NCBI RefSeq assembly: GCF_029360805.1
Contig: NZ_JARKNC010000010.1
Span: 857,287 to 921,286 of the forward strand
Source: Daejeonella sp. JGW-45
GTDB taxonomy: Bacteria; Bacteroidota; Bacteroidia; Sphingobacteriales; Sphingobacteriaceae
Direction of reading: 5' to 3'
Length of the DNA: 64,000 bases
Shown piece after piece: positions 57,199-64,000 of this stretch (the stretch's first letter is position 1; each line of letters opens with the position of its first letter). Position numbers and translations under genes: made by a program. The notes beneath the pieces are model-generated. The model was not told the origin of the DNA and did no database searches. It was given only the letters and a program-made list of their open reading frames with translations.

Positions 57199-57795
57199 AT
57201 GATGTCACTGGTGTTACCTATCGAAGATGCACAAGCCGTCAGTAAGAAAAGAAGCAGGAAGCTTCGTTTGTCTGAAGATATGCTTGTAGTGGGCCTGAAG
57301 AATAATGATAGCTTAGCTATGTCGGCCCTGTATCAGATGTATTCAGATTCCCTGTATAAAATTATCTCGACCATTGTTGTTGTTGAAGAGGTAGCTCAGG
57401 ATCTGTTGCAGGAAACGTTCATTAAGATCTGGAATTCGTTTAAGATGTACGATGCAAGCAAGGGACGCTTGTATACCTGGATGGCCCGGCTAGCACGTAA
57501 TTTGTCTATCGACTACCTGCGGAGCTCAAATCACAGGAATGCTTCCGTGTGCGAAGATCTGTCGGAGGTGACCCAGCAGGTTGATATGACCTTTCAGACG
57601 AATTATAATCCTGAGCTGATAGGTGTTAAGGAAATGACCCGTATCCTCAATAAGGATCAGAAGTCTGCCCTGGAGCTGGTGTATTTTCAGGGATATACCC
57701 ATGTGCAGGCAGCAGAGGAGTTAAATATTACCTTAGGTATCCTGCGTTCGCGATTGCAGTCATCGTTAAGCGAATTGAGGAAGGCGTACGCTTAA
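57199..57795 (+). CDS. ECF-type sigma factor
   Basis: 198 residues. Region 2: ALYQMYSDSLYKIISTIVVVEEVAQDLLQETFIKIWNSF; region 4: ILNKDQKSALELVYFQGYTHVQAAEELNITLGILRSRLQS. No anti-sigma gene is adjacent; a strong terminator ends the unit before the fibre locus. May control the neighbouring surface genes, untested. Confidence 0.9.
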   Translation: MMSLVLPIEDAQAVSKKRSRKLRLSEDMLVVGLKNNDSLAMSALYQMYSDSLYKIISTIVVVEEVAQDLLQETFIKIWNSFKMYDASKGRLYTWMARLARNLSIDYLRSSNHRNASVCEDLSEVTQQVDMTFQTNYNPELIGVKEMTRILNKDQKSALELVYFQGYTHVQAAEELNITLGILRSRLQSSLSELRKAYA

Positions 57796-58107: not shown

Positions 58108-58644
58108 ATGAAAAAAGTATTATTCCTAATCGCATTCGTTACCGTATCAATTATCAGCAGCAGCTCATTCGCCCAGACGGCGAACGTGAATATCACATTG
58201 TCTGATGTATTATCATTCTCAGTAACACAGCCGGGATCGCTTGACGTAAACTTCAACACGGAAGAAAAATATAATAATGGTATCACTTCACTGGCAACGG
58301 ACCACATCAGCGTGATCTCCTCCAGAGGTTATGTAGTTAAGGCGATCGCAGGAACGGTAACAGGTACTGCAGCATTAGCTCCCGGTTCAGTAAAGTTAAC
58401 TCCGGCAATCGGAGCTACTAACGGCGGTAACGCAGCAGGCATCACTTACGGATCGTCAGTTACCTTACCGGCAGCAGGCGGAACAGCAGCCACTGTTATC
58501 ACAGCAACCAACACTTCATGGAACGGTGCAGTATCAGCCAACAAGTTCAACGTTTCTTACCTGATCGGTGCCGGTGGTACGTACGCCGGTAAAGCTACCG
58601 GAACAAACGTTATCCCGGTTGTTTATACAGTAACACAACAATAA
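58108..58644 (+). CDS. Secreted pilin-like protein 1
   Basis: 178 residues. Signal peptide ends SSFAQ; mature N-terminus TANVNITLSDVLSFSV has alternating hydrophobics, as for a donor strand. Beta-rich body with VNFNTEEKYNNGITSLATDH, SSRGYVVKAI, SWNGAVSANKFNVSYLIG and terminal strand NVIPVVYTVTQQ. No cysteine pair. Paralogous to the next gene over its whole length. Not recognised as a known fimbrillin; structural subunit role is inferred from neighbours. Confidence 0.7.
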   Translation: MKKVLFLIAFVTVSIISSSSFAQTANVNITLSDVLSFSVTQPGSLDVNFNTEEKYNNGITSLATDHISVISSRGYVVKAIAGTVTGTAALAPGSVKLTPAIGATNGGNAAGITYGSSVTLPAAGGTAATVITATNTSWNGAVSANKFNVSYLIGAGGTYAGKATGTNVIPVVYTVTQQ

Positions 58645-58742
58645 TTCTTAGGAGTAAAAGAATAACGCACTCTTTATTATTTATAAAGGGAAAAGAGCCG
58701 CAATAGATTTGAGAAGCATAAGGAAATAACCAGGAAAACGAC

Positions 58743-59279
58743 ATGAGAAAGGGATTATTTTTATTTGTATTCATCTCGCTCTCTCTAATGAGTACAGCCA
58801 TATTCGCCCAGTCTGTGAATATGGCTATTACTTTAATGGACGCACTCAGCTTTACGGTTAACCCGCCGGAGTTTCTCCCGGCAGATGAAGTTAAAAAAAG
58901 GAAGAATGATAATCGTTTTGAAGCTATAGCCAGTGATCATATCAGCGTAGTTAGCTCCAGGGGTTATGTTGTTAAAGCAATTTCGGGAGTACAAGCCGGT
59001 GCAGGACCCGGCCTCGAAGGACTGGTTCAGCTTAGTTCGCTGATCGGTACAACAAACGGAGGAAATACCGCCGGACTCGTCTTGAAGTCAGATGTGGTTC
59101 TTCCCCCTTCCAACGGCAACCCTGCAACGGTGATCTTCGCAGCTAACTGCTCATGGAACGGCCCGGTCTCAGCAAACAAGTTTAATATCGCCTACAAAAT
59201 AGGCAGCCAGTTTGCTTATATTGATAAAAAAGCGCCCCCCAGTATTATACCGGTTATATTTACAGTCTTGCAACCATGA
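58743..59279 (+). CDS. Secreted pilin-like protein 2
   Basis: 178 residues, same length and pattern as the 58108 protein: signal ending IFAQ, mature SVNMAITLMDALSFTV, SDHISVVSSRGYVVKAISG, TNGGNTAGL, SWNGPVSANKFNIAYKIG, terminal SIIPVIFTVLQP. It has one cysteine (AANCSWNG). A tandem duplicate that has diverged, as for major and minor pilins. Confidence 0.7.
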   Translation: MRKGLFLFVFISLSLMSTAIFAQSVNMAITLMDALSFTVNPPEFLPADEVKKRKNDNRFEAIASDHISVVSSRGYVVKAISGVQAGAGPGLEGLVQLSSLIGTTNGGNTAGLVLKSDVVLPPSNGNPATVIFAANCSWNGPVSANKFNIAYKIGSQFAYIDKKAPPSIIPVIFTVLQP

Positions 59280-59395
59280 TTAAAAGACAGGCATACCTGG
59301 CGTAACCAATCAGACACGAAAACGTAAAATCCAACATAACTCGCATTTACACGTTACAGTACAGGCTTCTGCAAAGCCTTGTTTATATTTACCAT

Positions 59396-60214
59396 ATGAA
59401 AAAACTAATTTGCTTCTTATTTATCGTAGCTCTTGTCAGCCCCGTAAAAAGTGTGATGGCACAGGCTGGTATGACCGTTAGTCCGGGGAAGCTGTATTAT
59501 AAGCTTGCACCAGGGGCATCAGCAACTCAGAAAATAGTTATTAGTAATCCTAATAATAAGGAACTTGAGATAGGTGTATCCATGAACGACTGGGATTATG
59601 ATACACTGGGGAATAACCAGACGCATGATGCGGGGACCCTGAAAAACTCCGCAGCAGCGTGGGTGCAGGTGATGCCGGGTTCATACTTTACTCTTCAGCC
59701 TAACGAAAAGCGCGAGCTTGATATCATCTTTACAGTGCCGGCTGGTGCCAATACATCTATACCTGTCAACACTGCGATGCTATTTCTTACCCAGTTAAAT
59801 CCGGGTGATGCGAAAGCACAGGATGGTACTTCTATCAAAGTCAGCGTCAGAATGGGTGTTAAGATCTATCACAGTTTCACCCAGGCAGAGGAGCGGGATA
59901 TAGAAGTGACCAACTTTACTGATATCCTCCCCGCTAAAGATGATAAAACAACGGGGGGCTTCCTCGAGCTCAGCCTGCACAATACCGGTAAGACCTGGAT
60001 GGAAGGTAAGGTTAAGTGGGAGCTGCTGAATACGCAGACCGGTGCCAAGACAAAACTGGATGACCAGGATATCTTCTCACTGCCTGGTGATAAGCGGATT
60101 GTGCGGCAATCGTTGCCAGCCAACCTGGCGAAGGGAAAATATACGGCGACAGCTGTGATCAATTATGGGAATAAAGATGAGCTTAAACTCGTTGAGCTGG
60201 AGTTTGCCCGATAA
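59396..60214 (+). CDS. PapD-like periplasmic chaperone candidate
   Basis: 272 residues. Signal peptide ending VMAQ; two Ig-like domains, first MTVSPGKLYYKLAPGASATQKIVISNPNNKELEIGVSM (about 24-140), second EVTNFTDILPAKDDKTTGGFLELSLHN (about 170-272). This COG1470/PapD-like layout fits a fibre-subunit chaperone. Classical PapD Arg/Lys residues cannot be confirmed by eye. Located between pilin-like genes and the adhesin and barrel genes. Confidence 0.62.
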   Translation: MKKLICFLFIVALVSPVKSVMAQAGMTVSPGKLYYKLAPGASATQKIVISNPNNKELEIGVSMNDWDYDTLGNNQTHDAGTLKNSAAAWVQVMPGSYFTLQPNEKRELDIIFTVPAGANTSIPVNTAMLFLTQLNPGDAKAQDGTSIKVSVRMGVKIYHSFTQAEERDIEVTNFTDILPAKDDKTTGGFLELSLHNTGKTWMEGKVKWELLNTQTGAKTKLDDQDIFSLPGDKRIVRQSLPANLAKGKYTATAVINYGNKDELKLVELEFAR

Positions 60215-60218
60215 AAGA

Positions 60219-61748
60219 ATGAGATTTTTAGAACAGAAATCTTTAAGTAACAAGACGATTTTTACGGTGCTTGTTTTTGCACTGATCACCTGTTATTCAA
60301 AGTATAGTTTCAGTCAGTCATTAGATTTTTACAAAGGATCTGATTGTACGATTACAACTTCATCTGATGTGCTCTCAGGCTGTACATCAAACAACTACAT
60401 ATTCGTTCAGTATCAGAACTTTCCGGGAACAGGACTTAATTTATCCGCAGGCTGGACATTAAAAGTACAGGCCAATGGTGATTTCTCGAATGGTATAAAT
60501 ACGATCCCCGCTCAATATGTGTCTATCGGCTTTAGTTCTGTTGATGGCGGACCTTCAGGTGTGAGCGGTACAGGCAATAAGGTCTTGAGTAAAACTACTG
60601 CCCAGCCATTAATAATCACCTCGACGGCACTTCAATCGCCGCCGCATTATTATTTTGTACATAAACTTAATATGATAGTGTCAGGCGGTAACCATTTACT
60701 GGCCGGCTCGGGAACCTATAGCACTTCCTTGACACTGACCTTGGTTGATGCTAATGGTATAATCGTATCTACCAACAGCAATGTTCCGGTTTCATTTGTA
60801 GTAAATTTTAATAATACATGCAGCGGGGCGACGCTGAATTCCTATTTCGGAAACCAGCCCGTGTTTACAGATTATGCGGCACTGATGGCCGGCCGGACCG
60901 TTACTGACGCATTAAGTATCCAGTACGCGCCGAATCAGGCAGCCTGTTCAGGCTGGACGCTAAAAGTCAGGGCCAATACTAATTTCATAAATGGAAGTAA
61001 CTCAGTGCCCGCACAGTATTTTTCCATGCGCTTTAACCGGGTAGCCGCAGGTTCACCTTCAGCAGCGCAAATAGGTGTTACGAATAATATCGTTCCGCTA
61101 TCGTTTACGGATGCTACGCTCATCGATCAGTCGAACGCCGGCTTTACACCCTATGCGGGTACGGAACATAAGTTTGATATGATAATAAGTGGTGGTAACC
61201 ATTTGCTGGTACCAAACGGAACCTATACCGCAAACCTTACGTTTACTTTATATAATCAGGCTAATGAGGTCGTGTCGACTAAAACACAGGATGCGTCCTT
61301 CCAGATCAATTCCAGCACAAATAGTTATACGGTTGTACTTCAAAATTCTGCGCACGTGGTTGATATGGTATTTAATACCCTGGCAAGTTACCAGACAGGA
61401 GTATCGGTTGATAAACCAAGAGGATTGAAAGTTACCGGCTACAACGGCTACCAGATCCTGATAAAAACGAGTGGTGCAAATCTTCAGAATGAGGAGGATG
61501 TAACCATTCCTGTTTCGGTAGTAAATGTTCAAACCACAAAGCATACCAATACCTCAGGTAATATCACCACGTTTACAAGGGCTTTATCTGTCGCAGATCA
61601 GATCATAATAAATAATCCCGTGAAAAATTCCTCGATGCACGTGGTCGAATATAATCTCCGGTATTATACCACACCCGGTGATGCCAGACTGTCGGGTAAG
61701 GGCGGGACCTTTAATACAACAGTTCTTTTTGTGGCAATACCACTATAA
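60219..61748 (+). CDS. Adhesin-like protein: two related beta domains plus pilin-like end
   Basis: Start at 60219 (MRFLEQKSLSNKTIF), 4 bp after the chaperone stop. About 509 residues. After a signal-like helix (FTVLVFALITCYSKYSFSQ) come two homologous units of about 150 residues with SAGWTLKVQANGDFSNGINTIPAQY / CSGWTLKVRANTNFINGSNSVPAQY and IVSGGNHLLAGSGTYSTSLT / IISGGNHLLVPNGTYTANLT. The C-terminal 140 residues (VDMVFNTLASYQTGVSV, GYNGYQILIKTSG) resemble the pilin-like proteins (VNFNTEEKYNNGITS, SRGYVVKAI). That is a tip-adhesin domain logic. Confidence 0.65.
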   Translation: MRFLEQKSLSNKTIFTVLVFALITCYSKYSFSQSLDFYKGSDCTITTSSDVLSGCTSNNYIFVQYQNFPGTGLNLSAGWTLKVQANGDFSNGINTIPAQYVSIGFSSVDGGPSGVSGTGNKVLSKTTAQPLIITSTALQSPPHYYFVHKLNMIVSGGNHLLAGSGTYSTSLTLTLVDANGIIVSTNSNVPVSFVVNFNNTCSGATLNSYFGNQPVFTDYAALMAGRTVTDALSIQYAPNQAACSGWTLKVRANTNFINGSNSVPAQYFSMRFNRVAAGSPSAAQIGVTNNIVPLSFTDATLIDQSNAGFTPYAGTEHKFDMIISGGNHLLVPNGTYTANLTFTLYNQANEVVSTKTQDASFQINSSTNSYTVVLQNSAHVVDMVFNTLASYQTGVSVDKPRGLKVTGYNGYQILIKTSGANLQNEEDVTIPVSVVNVQTTKHTNTSGNITTFTRALSVADQIIINNPVKNSSMHVVEYNLRYYTTPGDARLSGKGGTFNTTVLFVAIPL

Positions 61749-61757
61749 AATGATCCT

Positions 61758-64000
61758 ATGTCAATAGGTTCCGGAATGCTGATGTTAAAAAAAGAAAGAC
61801 ATGACTTCGCTCGCTTAACGATATTTCAACGAGGGCTACGTGTGAAGTTCAGTTGCTGGCTTCCAGTGTGTAGAGCTGCATTTCTGTTCCTTCTTTTTTT
61901 CTTCGTTCGCGAGAAAGCCAATGCTCAGGCCGGATCGCCGATAGTATTCCAACCCACGGTTACCACGATAAGTTCCTCGAATGAAGAGTTGACGGATTTT
62001 ATGATTAAGATCGTCAATAAACAGGCAATACCCTTACTTGGTGTGATGAACGTTAACCTCCCGGCAAGCCTGGACTTGATCAGTAAAAATAAAATCGCTG
62101 TTAACCTGCAGCCCGGCGACAGCACCTTTGTTCCTGTTAAAATATTTATCACCAAGCGTACTGCTTCGGGTAAAGAGCATATTATTCGTTTTTTACTTAC
62201 CGATCGGGAAAACAACGCCCTGGCAGCATCCGAAATTCCACTCCGGGTATCGGTGAAAAGAAATGTAAACATGTACTCGTTGCTTACCAATATATTGCTC
62301 GACCCGTCTTCTGATTCGATCAAGATACCGATAAGGATAACTAACCCCGGTAATACAGCGCAAAAGATAACAGTTATTAATCGCTACCCGTCTATCTTCC
62401 AGGATGATGCATTCCATATTACCCGGCAATTTACTATTCAGCCTTCTGCCGATACCATCATCACCTTTACAAAGCCGATAGTAAAGAAAATGCTCAGTTC
62501 TGAAGGTTTCGATGTTACTTTCAGCGGTCTTTACGATAACGGCGATATATTCGGCATGGCCTATATCAGGATACAGAGCGCCAGGAACCAGCGCGCTTAC
62601 CGGGATGAGTCATTAAGCGACTCCTACAACCTGAATAGTATTACCCTGAGTTCCCAAAGCATGTTCTCGCCAAATCAATCTTACCTTTTAACGGGAAGAG
62701 GGAATCTCGAACTGCCCAAGGGCATGGTGGGTTACAATCTGGACTTTACGACGTGGAGGAATTCTTACTCGCCACCCATGGCAAGGAGCACATATTTATC
62801 TTACTCCAATCAGAAATTCGGGATAACTGCAGGAAATATTAATAAGAATATTGATATCAACCTCAGTGGAAGGGGTGGCAGCATTTTTTTAAATGATACA
62901 GCGTCCAATAACTCCTATGAGGTTGGATTTATCGACGGGAACGCTAACCTGCTGGGAAACAGGTTTAACACTTTCGTGCCCTCGGGAAATGCTGGCTGGG
63001 GTAGCTTTACGCATACAGGAGAATCCTGGGAGCTGGCGACGTCGGCAGTTTATGAAGCTAATCCGGTTTTTAATTCGAGAAGCGCGATAGTCGGCAATAG
63101 TTTCACATTCACAAAGGTGAAAGGGCTGCGGATGACGGCATCCGCTAGCGGAGGATATACTACCGAATATGAAAATGGTACTACTTTCAAGCCAAGTATT
63201 GCGGGAGGCGTAAACATCAACGGTACCCTGAACAAGATCCTGATTAATAGCCAGAACTACTATAGCTCCGCCTATTACCCGGGAATGAGACGGGGTGCTC
63301 TGTCGTTCAATGAGCGCATAACCTGGCTGCGGGAAAATTCGAATATCTGGGGCGGTGTCGATTATAATCATTACGAACCTAAGACTCTTTCGTCTTTTCA
63401 GACCTTCATGCCGGTATTCAGCACGATGAGGGTGGAAGCGGGAATGTCTGGAACTATTTTCAAGAAGCTTAATGTATCGGTCGCACCGGTGTATACCCGC
63501 GAAACTAATAATGCCTACAAGTTTTCGGGTTTGGCGGACGAAAGGCATTCGATGGAAGCCTGGAATGTGAACAACTCCTTTAATTTTTCACTATCAGATA
63601 ACCAATACGTTTCCCTCAATACAGAGACGGGGTTTTATAGTTCTACCTTTGATTCGCAGAAGCGTTTTCATTTTCGCTCTAATTTGAATTACAGAAGAGG
63701 GATGTTTAATCTTAGTTCGACTGTGCAGTCGGGCACGTTTTATATTGGCGAAGCAGCTAATAACTTTCTTCGTGATGTCGAGTCGCCAAGACTGATCAAT
63801 ATTATCCCCTCTTTCCAGAAGAGTTTTTACCGTAATAAACTTCGGACTGAACTAGGGCTGGCATTCATCAATAGCAGTCTTTTTGGCAGCAGCTCATATT
63901 TAACTGGCCGCGCGGAGTATGATCTTACTCCTAAAACAAGTGTTTACTCTGCAATTAACCACAACCGCTACGGCGACTATAACCTTAGTATCCTTGAAAT
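61758..64000 (+). CDS. Large outer-membrane beta-barrel protein, usher-like (3' end outside window)
   Basis: The frame is open from ATG 61758 to the window end without a stop (747 complete codons seen), so it is truncated by the window. A basic N-terminus and hydrophobic signal (CRAAFLFLLFFFVREKANAQ) precede about 250 residues of Ig-like beta domains (SPIVFQPTVTTISSSNEEL, ITNPGNTAQKITVINRYP), then a long series of amphipathic strands (DFTTWRNSYSPPMARSTYLSYSNQKFGITAGN, FNSRSAIVGNSFTFTKVKG). Role as a secretion pore for the fibre subunits is inferred from synteny and architecture; it could also be another barrel type. Confidence 0.68.
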   Translation, partial: MSIGSGMLMLKKERHDFARLTIFQRGLRVKFSCWLPVCRAAFLFLLFFFVREKANAQAGSPIVFQPTVTTISSSNEELTDFMIKIVNKQAIPLLGVMNVNLPASLDLISKNKIAVNLQPGDSTFVPVKIFITKRTASGKEHIIRFLLTDRENNALAASEIPLRVSVKRNVNMYSLLTNILLDPSSDSIKIPIRITNPGNTAQKITVINRYPSIFQDDAFHITRQFTIQPSADTIITFTKPIVKKMLSSEGFDVTFSGLYDNGDIFGMAYIRIQSARNQRAYRDESLSDSYNLNSITLSSQSMFSPNQSYLLTGRGNLELPKGMVGYNLDFTTWRNSYSPPMARSTYLSYSNQKFGITAGNINKNIDINLSGRGGSIFLNDTASNNSYEVGFIDGNANLLGNRFNTFVPSGNAGWGSFTHTGESWELATSAVYEANPVFNSRSAIVGNSFTFTKVKGLRMTASASGGYTTEYENGTTFKPSIAGGVNINGTLNKILINSQNYYSSAYYPGMRRGALSFNERITWLRENSNIWGGVDYNHYEPKTLSSFQTFMPVFSTMRVEAGMSGTIFKKLNVSVAPVYTRETNNAYKFSGLADERHSMEAWNVNNSFNFSLSDNQYVSLNTETGFYSSTFDSQKRFHFRSNLNYRRGMFNLSSTVQSGTFYIGEAANNFLRDVESPRLINIIPSFQKSFYRNKLRTELGLAFINSSLFGSSSYLTGRAEYDLTPKTSVYSAINHNRYGDYNLSILE

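Follow-up and report, generated by a model that had tools for sequence, protein, structure and literature searches.

A 64 000-nucleotide stretch of the Daejeonella sp. JGW-45 genome (contig NZ_JARKNC010000010.1, positions 857 287 to 921 286; genome size 4.1 Mb), hereafter called the window, carries five co-directional genes that probably form a divergent operon of the chaperone-usher type, making an adhesive fibre, in a phylum that is not known for such pili. They correspond to five open reading frames (ORFs), all on the + strand, located at 58108-58644 and 58743-59279 (pilin-like subunits A and B, 178 amino acids each), 59396-60214 (periplasmic chaperone, 272 amino acids), 60165-61748 (adhesin-like protein, 527 amino acids) and from 61758 onwards (usher-like outer-membrane barrel, 963 amino acids), the last one being still open at 64000, the end of the window, and terminating at window-equivalent position 64649. 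The N-termini of all five proteins resemble, by eye, Sec signal peptides ending in AQ or SQ. The original prediction had proposed these five genes and their products, and had read the locus as chaperone-usher-like. What it said of the genes, of an immunoglobulin (Ig)-fold chaperone, of N-terminally extended pilins, of a multi-domain, tip-type adhesin and of the gene order holds up, while the role of the barrel as an usher is less settled. The locus is thus chaperone-usher-like in every testable part but the barrel, for which support is indirect and comes from profiles of distant homologues. The sequences were also said to be unlike those of classical members, and indeed no window protein has a match to a chaperone-usher sequence family: Pfam and NCBIfam returned nothing useful for the five genes, and PDB sequence profiles returned no chaperone or usher at E-values up to 10. 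Because the window proteins fail the usher and PapD family profiles, we do not claim formal membership of the chaperone-usher class.

Conservation of the locus

Thirteen related loci from a public genome collection carry the chaperone (in Daejeonella, Pedobacter, Sediminibacterium, Flavobacterium, Mesonia, Arenibacter and others). Since all 13 keep the order pilin(s)-chaperone-adhesin-barrel on one strand, the cluster is not a chance assembly, and the genes are conserved together. One of the pilins (L009) gave no BLAST match and was placed by position, but a pilin profile built without it detects it with an E-value of 6.7e-34. Among named organisms, Daejeonella lutea has the closest chaperone (89% identical). 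Counting the source genome, a close-family profile finds the chaperone in 15 of 296 genomes sampled from the phylum; in the order, 42 of 201 genomes have it, i.e. about a fifth. The close-family profile missed three genomes with usher matches (see below), whose chaperones were detected by a wider profile.

The chaperone also has more distant relatives, both within the phylum and on plasmids of Deinococcus. There it adjoins a large gene that encodes CarboxypepD_reg or SdrD_B domains, and both gene order and strand vary; for example, the barrel gene lies on the opposite strand in L034 and 5′ of the chaperone in L044. Six of the 13 distant chaperone loci (L033-L045) have a barrel gene supported by the barrel profile at an E-value of 3.4e-8 or better. 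The barrels of L038 and L042 score 19.3 and 11.7 bits, only in an 11-sequence search with filters off, and four further loci (L035, L037, L039 and L041) have a large adjoining ORF without profile support, which ends at the contig end in L035 and is split in two in L041. The Deinococcus neighbours are called pilin-like by size and position only, the pilin profile giving there E-values of 11 or worse. Two distant genomes of the phylum (L071:1-4588 and L073:8012-13019) have MotA-, MotB- and FliG-type genes immediately 3′ of the chaperone and the barrel, and one of these flagellar-motor-like modules has an additional weak FliF-type match. No such system is described in the titles and opening abstract lines listed from the open-licence literature searched.

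Pilins and adhesin

The two pilins are paralogues (49% identity). In their N-terminal extension, residues 27, 29, 31, 37 and 39 are hydrophobic in 25-26 of 26 sequences, an alternation that had been pointed out in the original prediction, and the segment (residues 25-39 of pilin A; 58180..58224, + strand) is a predicted donor strand. A C-terminal strand is conserved in the same 26 sequences, and the body of the pilins may be an Ig fold lacking one strand. DUF4402, a family that would be expected for such pilins, did not match the window pilins in the Pfam scan; its cut-off is passed by two of ten distant neighbours tested, both in L039, and it is not mentioned in the open-licence literature searched. 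Three further pilin genes lie far from the operon (C1:455520-456053, C3:57332-57859 and C4:407114-407632; L046-L048), the first of them identical to pilin A over the 50 residues compared; the genome has a single chaperone.

It could be argued that the locus specifies a variant of the type V (FimA/Mfa1-type) pilus of Bacteroidota, with which it would share the host phylum, a surface fibre and a proposed strand exchange. Two weak matches point in that direction: a chaperone relative from a Deinococcus plasmid (L059:7004-7774), annotated as a FimB/Mfa2 fimbrial subunit, is barely above the Mfa2 Pfam cut-off (21.7 bits versus 21.2), and a distant pilin (L036) has a FimA-like_C match below cut-off (E-value of 0.013). 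The former is perhaps a misannotation. However, no FimA or Mfa1 family appears in the Pfam list for the 26 pilins at E-values up to 1. Type V pilins are protease-cut lipoproteins, whereas the alignment of our pilins has no cysteine beside the cleavage site, and the available part of the source describes no chaperone or usher for type V pili and says that no such genes had been described in P. gingivalis (PMC5789003); the present locus has both a chaperone and a barrel. We therefore consider a type V variant very improbable.

The adhesin-like protein, whose homologue occupies the same place in all 13 loci, consists of two copies of a front module (36% identity over 156 amino acids, E-value of 5.4e-27) followed by a pilin domain (residues 377-527; 61293..61745, + strand), which the original prediction had not reported. 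The approximately 150 C-terminal residues match the pilins in a profile-profile comparison (probability 98.6, E-value of 9.2e-16), and within the genome the pilin profile matches the C-terminus of the adhesin with an E-value of 6.0e-6. The protein is long (500-529 amino acids) in seven of 14 sequences and short (335-348) in the other seven. Its start is probably at 60219, since the start at 60165 overlaps the chaperone gene. In known systems, the tip adhesin is a pilin domain preceded by other domains; here too, as the pilin domain comes after other domains, the adhesin has no free donor strand.

The chaperone

The model of the chaperone (predicted local distance difference test score, pLDDT, of 88.1) has the two-domain Ig fold of PapD, and Foldseek and VIA-align match it to WxLIP and to PapD-type chaperones, its closest solved structure being a Gram-positive WxLIP, not PapD. 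The predicted G1 donor strand (residues 147-157; 59834..59866, + strand) alternates strictly: positions I147, V149, V151, M153, V155 and I157 are hydrophobic in 14 of 14 sequences and the intervening ones in none. R152 and K156 are invariant in the close family. In the profile alignment, K/R32 and K156 stand opposite Arg8 and Lys112 of FimC, the basic cleft residues that anchor the pilin C-terminus in classical chaperones. Among nine distant chaperones scanned, one (L037) passes the PapD_N cut-off (E-value of 8.2e-8), two (L038 and L043) pass that of WxLIP_PGBD, and L038 passes that of WxLIP_HBD as well.

An alternative to a pilus is a surface complex resembling that of WxL proteins, in which the WxLIP-like protein would stay bound to the pilin-like subunits and the adhesin and would display them, together with the barrel, on the outer membrane, with no polymer being formed. 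Yet WxLIP has a C-terminal membrane helix (PDB 9i1y, 9i25; PMC10599100, as far as available), which the window chaperone lacks, a beta-strand reaching its C-terminal end in both sequence and model. The window chaperone also falls below the WxLIP cut-offs of Pfam (16.8 bits versus 27.3 for PF06030; no PF11797 at E-values up to 1). The part of PMC10599100 available mentions no barrel for WxL clusters, whereas a large barrel gene adjoins the chaperone in the 13 close loci. Moreover, the pilins carry their own N-terminal extension with alternating hydrophobic residues, which would be best explained by polymerization. A non-polymerizing complex of this kind is therefore unlikely.

Beyond what was observed (the gene order, the chaperone fold in the predicted model, the two alternating strands and the pilin domain of the adhesin), we infer for a chaperone-usher-type operon chaperone-subunit complexes, strand exchange, a barrel acting as an usher and the fibre itself, along the following lines. 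Once in the periplasm, the exported pilins and adhesin would have an Ig fold short of one strand, and the G1 strand of the chaperone would plug this gap, while the C-terminus of the pilin would probably be held by Lys156 and the basic residue at position 32. The first subunit to enter the barrel would be the adhesin, which would become the tip. Each later pilin would then insert its N-terminal extension into the preceding subunit, displacing the chaperone, and the fibre would be extruded through the barrel during this exchange.

The barrel

The barrel was examined through a model of a Daejeonella homologue (pLDDT of 79.7, predicted template modelling score of 0.49). Counted by hand, the barrel in this model has about 26 strand elements, compared to 24 strands in an usher, and is flanked by two Ig-like domains on its N-terminal side and two Ig/transthyretin-like domains on its C-terminal side. 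The model, although of low confidence, is in line with the large outer-membrane barrel of the original prediction; identity as an usher depends on a mixed structural ranking and on profiles of distant homologues. In the Foldseek search, FimD and PapC hold 11 of the first 13 ranks (1-3, 5-10, 12 and 13), FimD having the best E-value, with TM-scores of 0.30-0.40. A profile built from 25 barrels, some of them distant (L035, L039, L040, L041 and L061 of Deinococcus being excluded), was aligned globally with ushers and gave 94.8% over 746 columns and a score of 46.4; eight shuffles scored 0.1-5.6, and a control of four TonB-receptor sequences scored 18.5. In local mode, the alignment reached 59.3% over 94 C-terminal columns only. 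The close barrel family, compared to K-12 ushers, gave 4.2% and was rejected. The Usher family PF00577 has matches below cut-off in three of 296 genomes (E-values of 1.9e-5, 5.4e-5 and 7.4e-4), and each of them is a barrel ORF beside a chaperone of the wide family (E-values of 9e-28, 1e-40 and 1.4e-38). When whole proteins were scanned, PF00577 appeared at E-values up to 0.1 in one of 13 distant barrels (L071).

Several results weigh against a chaperone-usher-type operon. PF00577 has no match in the source genome, and none above cut-off in the 296 genomes; it is not listed for the L070 barrel scanned whole; PapD_N (PF00345) matches none of the 14 close-family chaperones at E-values up to 1; and, when the structural matches of the barrel model are ranked by Z-score, BtuB (16.6) comes ahead of FimD (14.3). 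The latter finding would fit a barrel unrelated to ushers and serving transport or secretion, the other genes then encoding a secreted adhesive complex exported otherwise, e.g. by type IX secretion. The lack of an usher match for the close barrel family would fit too, as would the CarboxypepD_reg-like domain at the C-terminus of the barrel, such domains being common in transporters as well. (A match to NOMO2 among PDB sequence profiles, with an E-value of 4.8e-4, is confined to the C-terminal transthyretin-like domains.) But the barrel adjoins the chaperone and the pilins in all 13 close loci and in most distant ones too, the wide barrel family matches ushers globally and not TonB receptors, and the five window proteins have no match to a type IX sorting domain in the Pfam scan. 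We thus give little credence to an unrelated barrel.

Compared to classical and archaic chaperone-usher pili (Fim, Caf1 and Csu), the locus is alike in its gene content: a two-domain Ig chaperone whose G1 strand alternates and which has a basic residue at the position of Lys112, N-terminally extended pilins, a large barrel and an adhesin of several domains, the last of them a pilin domain. It differs from them in the absence of sequence-family matches and in the barrel, which begins with two Ig-like domains and shows no plug domain inserted among its predicted strands. It differs from archaic chaperone-usher systems in its host phylum, Bacteroidota, these systems being listed in Proteobacteria, Cyanobacteria and Deinococcus-Thermus in the available part of PMC4654587.

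Possible relationship between PapD, WxLIP and the window chaperone

With signal peptides removed, a profile of 28 chaperones was compared to 12 K-12 chaperones, with a score of 62.5 (maximum of 15 shuffles, 15.5), and to seven WxLIPs, with a score of 88.8 (maximum of 15 shuffles, 14.5; the WxL sets excluding Niallia, L068). PapD and WxLIP compared directly gave 0.2% and a score of 15.4, within their own shuffles. The match of the close chaperone family does not stand by itself, its HHalign probability of 87.3% dropping to 10.1% once signal peptides were removed; that of the widened family does. One control calls for caution about the chaperone profile as a bridge: the tandem Ig domains of the barrel score 42.8 (79.8%) against the same profile, so that either part of the bridge score reflects common Ig character or these domains are relatives. 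The pilins match WxL domains at 80.6% over 84 columns, which is suggestive only; the adhesin (8.1%) was rejected. Common ancestry of PapD, WxLIP and the window chaperone family is, on these sequence profiles, a supported hypothesis and not a result. Going further, the systems of Bacteroidota and Deinococcus may constitute a third branch of strand-complementing assembly, with a chaperone linking Gram-negative PapD to Gram-positive WxLIP. One ancestral set of pilin, adhesin and chaperone would then have given rise to both chaperone-usher pili and WxL clusters, the barrel being kept only where an outer membrane exists. We put this forward tentatively, as an idea that could well be right but with the balance tilting slightly against it. 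Among control genomes, the WxLIP domain PF06030 also has matches in Thermotoga maritima, an organism with an outer sheath.

Neighbouring genes and significance

Directly 5′ of the five genes lie an OmpA-family gene and a gene for an extracytoplasmic function (ECF) sigma factor (57199..57795, + strand; Pfam Sigma70_r2, E-value of 2.4e-14), which is a possible regulator of the operon. The ECF neighbour is present in another Daejeonella locus (L002) as well. On the 3′ side of the barrel, beyond the window and hence absent from the original prediction, a gene at L001:11267-11647 (window-equivalent 64980-65360) encodes a secreted mini-pilin of 126 amino acids, found in L002 and L003 too. Over 73 columns, the signal peptide among them, its N-terminus, which resembles a donor strand, aligns with the pilins at a probability of 95.7, but its body is short; it is possibly a terminator or an anchor.

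If our interpretation is correct, about a fifth of the genomes sampled in one order of Bacteroidota would have an assembly pathway known chiefly from Proteobacteria, and this pathway would be scattered through the phylum. Environmental Bacteroidota would gain a second, chaperone-dependent type of fibre beside type V pili, and ushers of different build would be open to comparison. A shared ancestor of the Gram-positive WxL complexes and the Gram-negative pili would then become testable.
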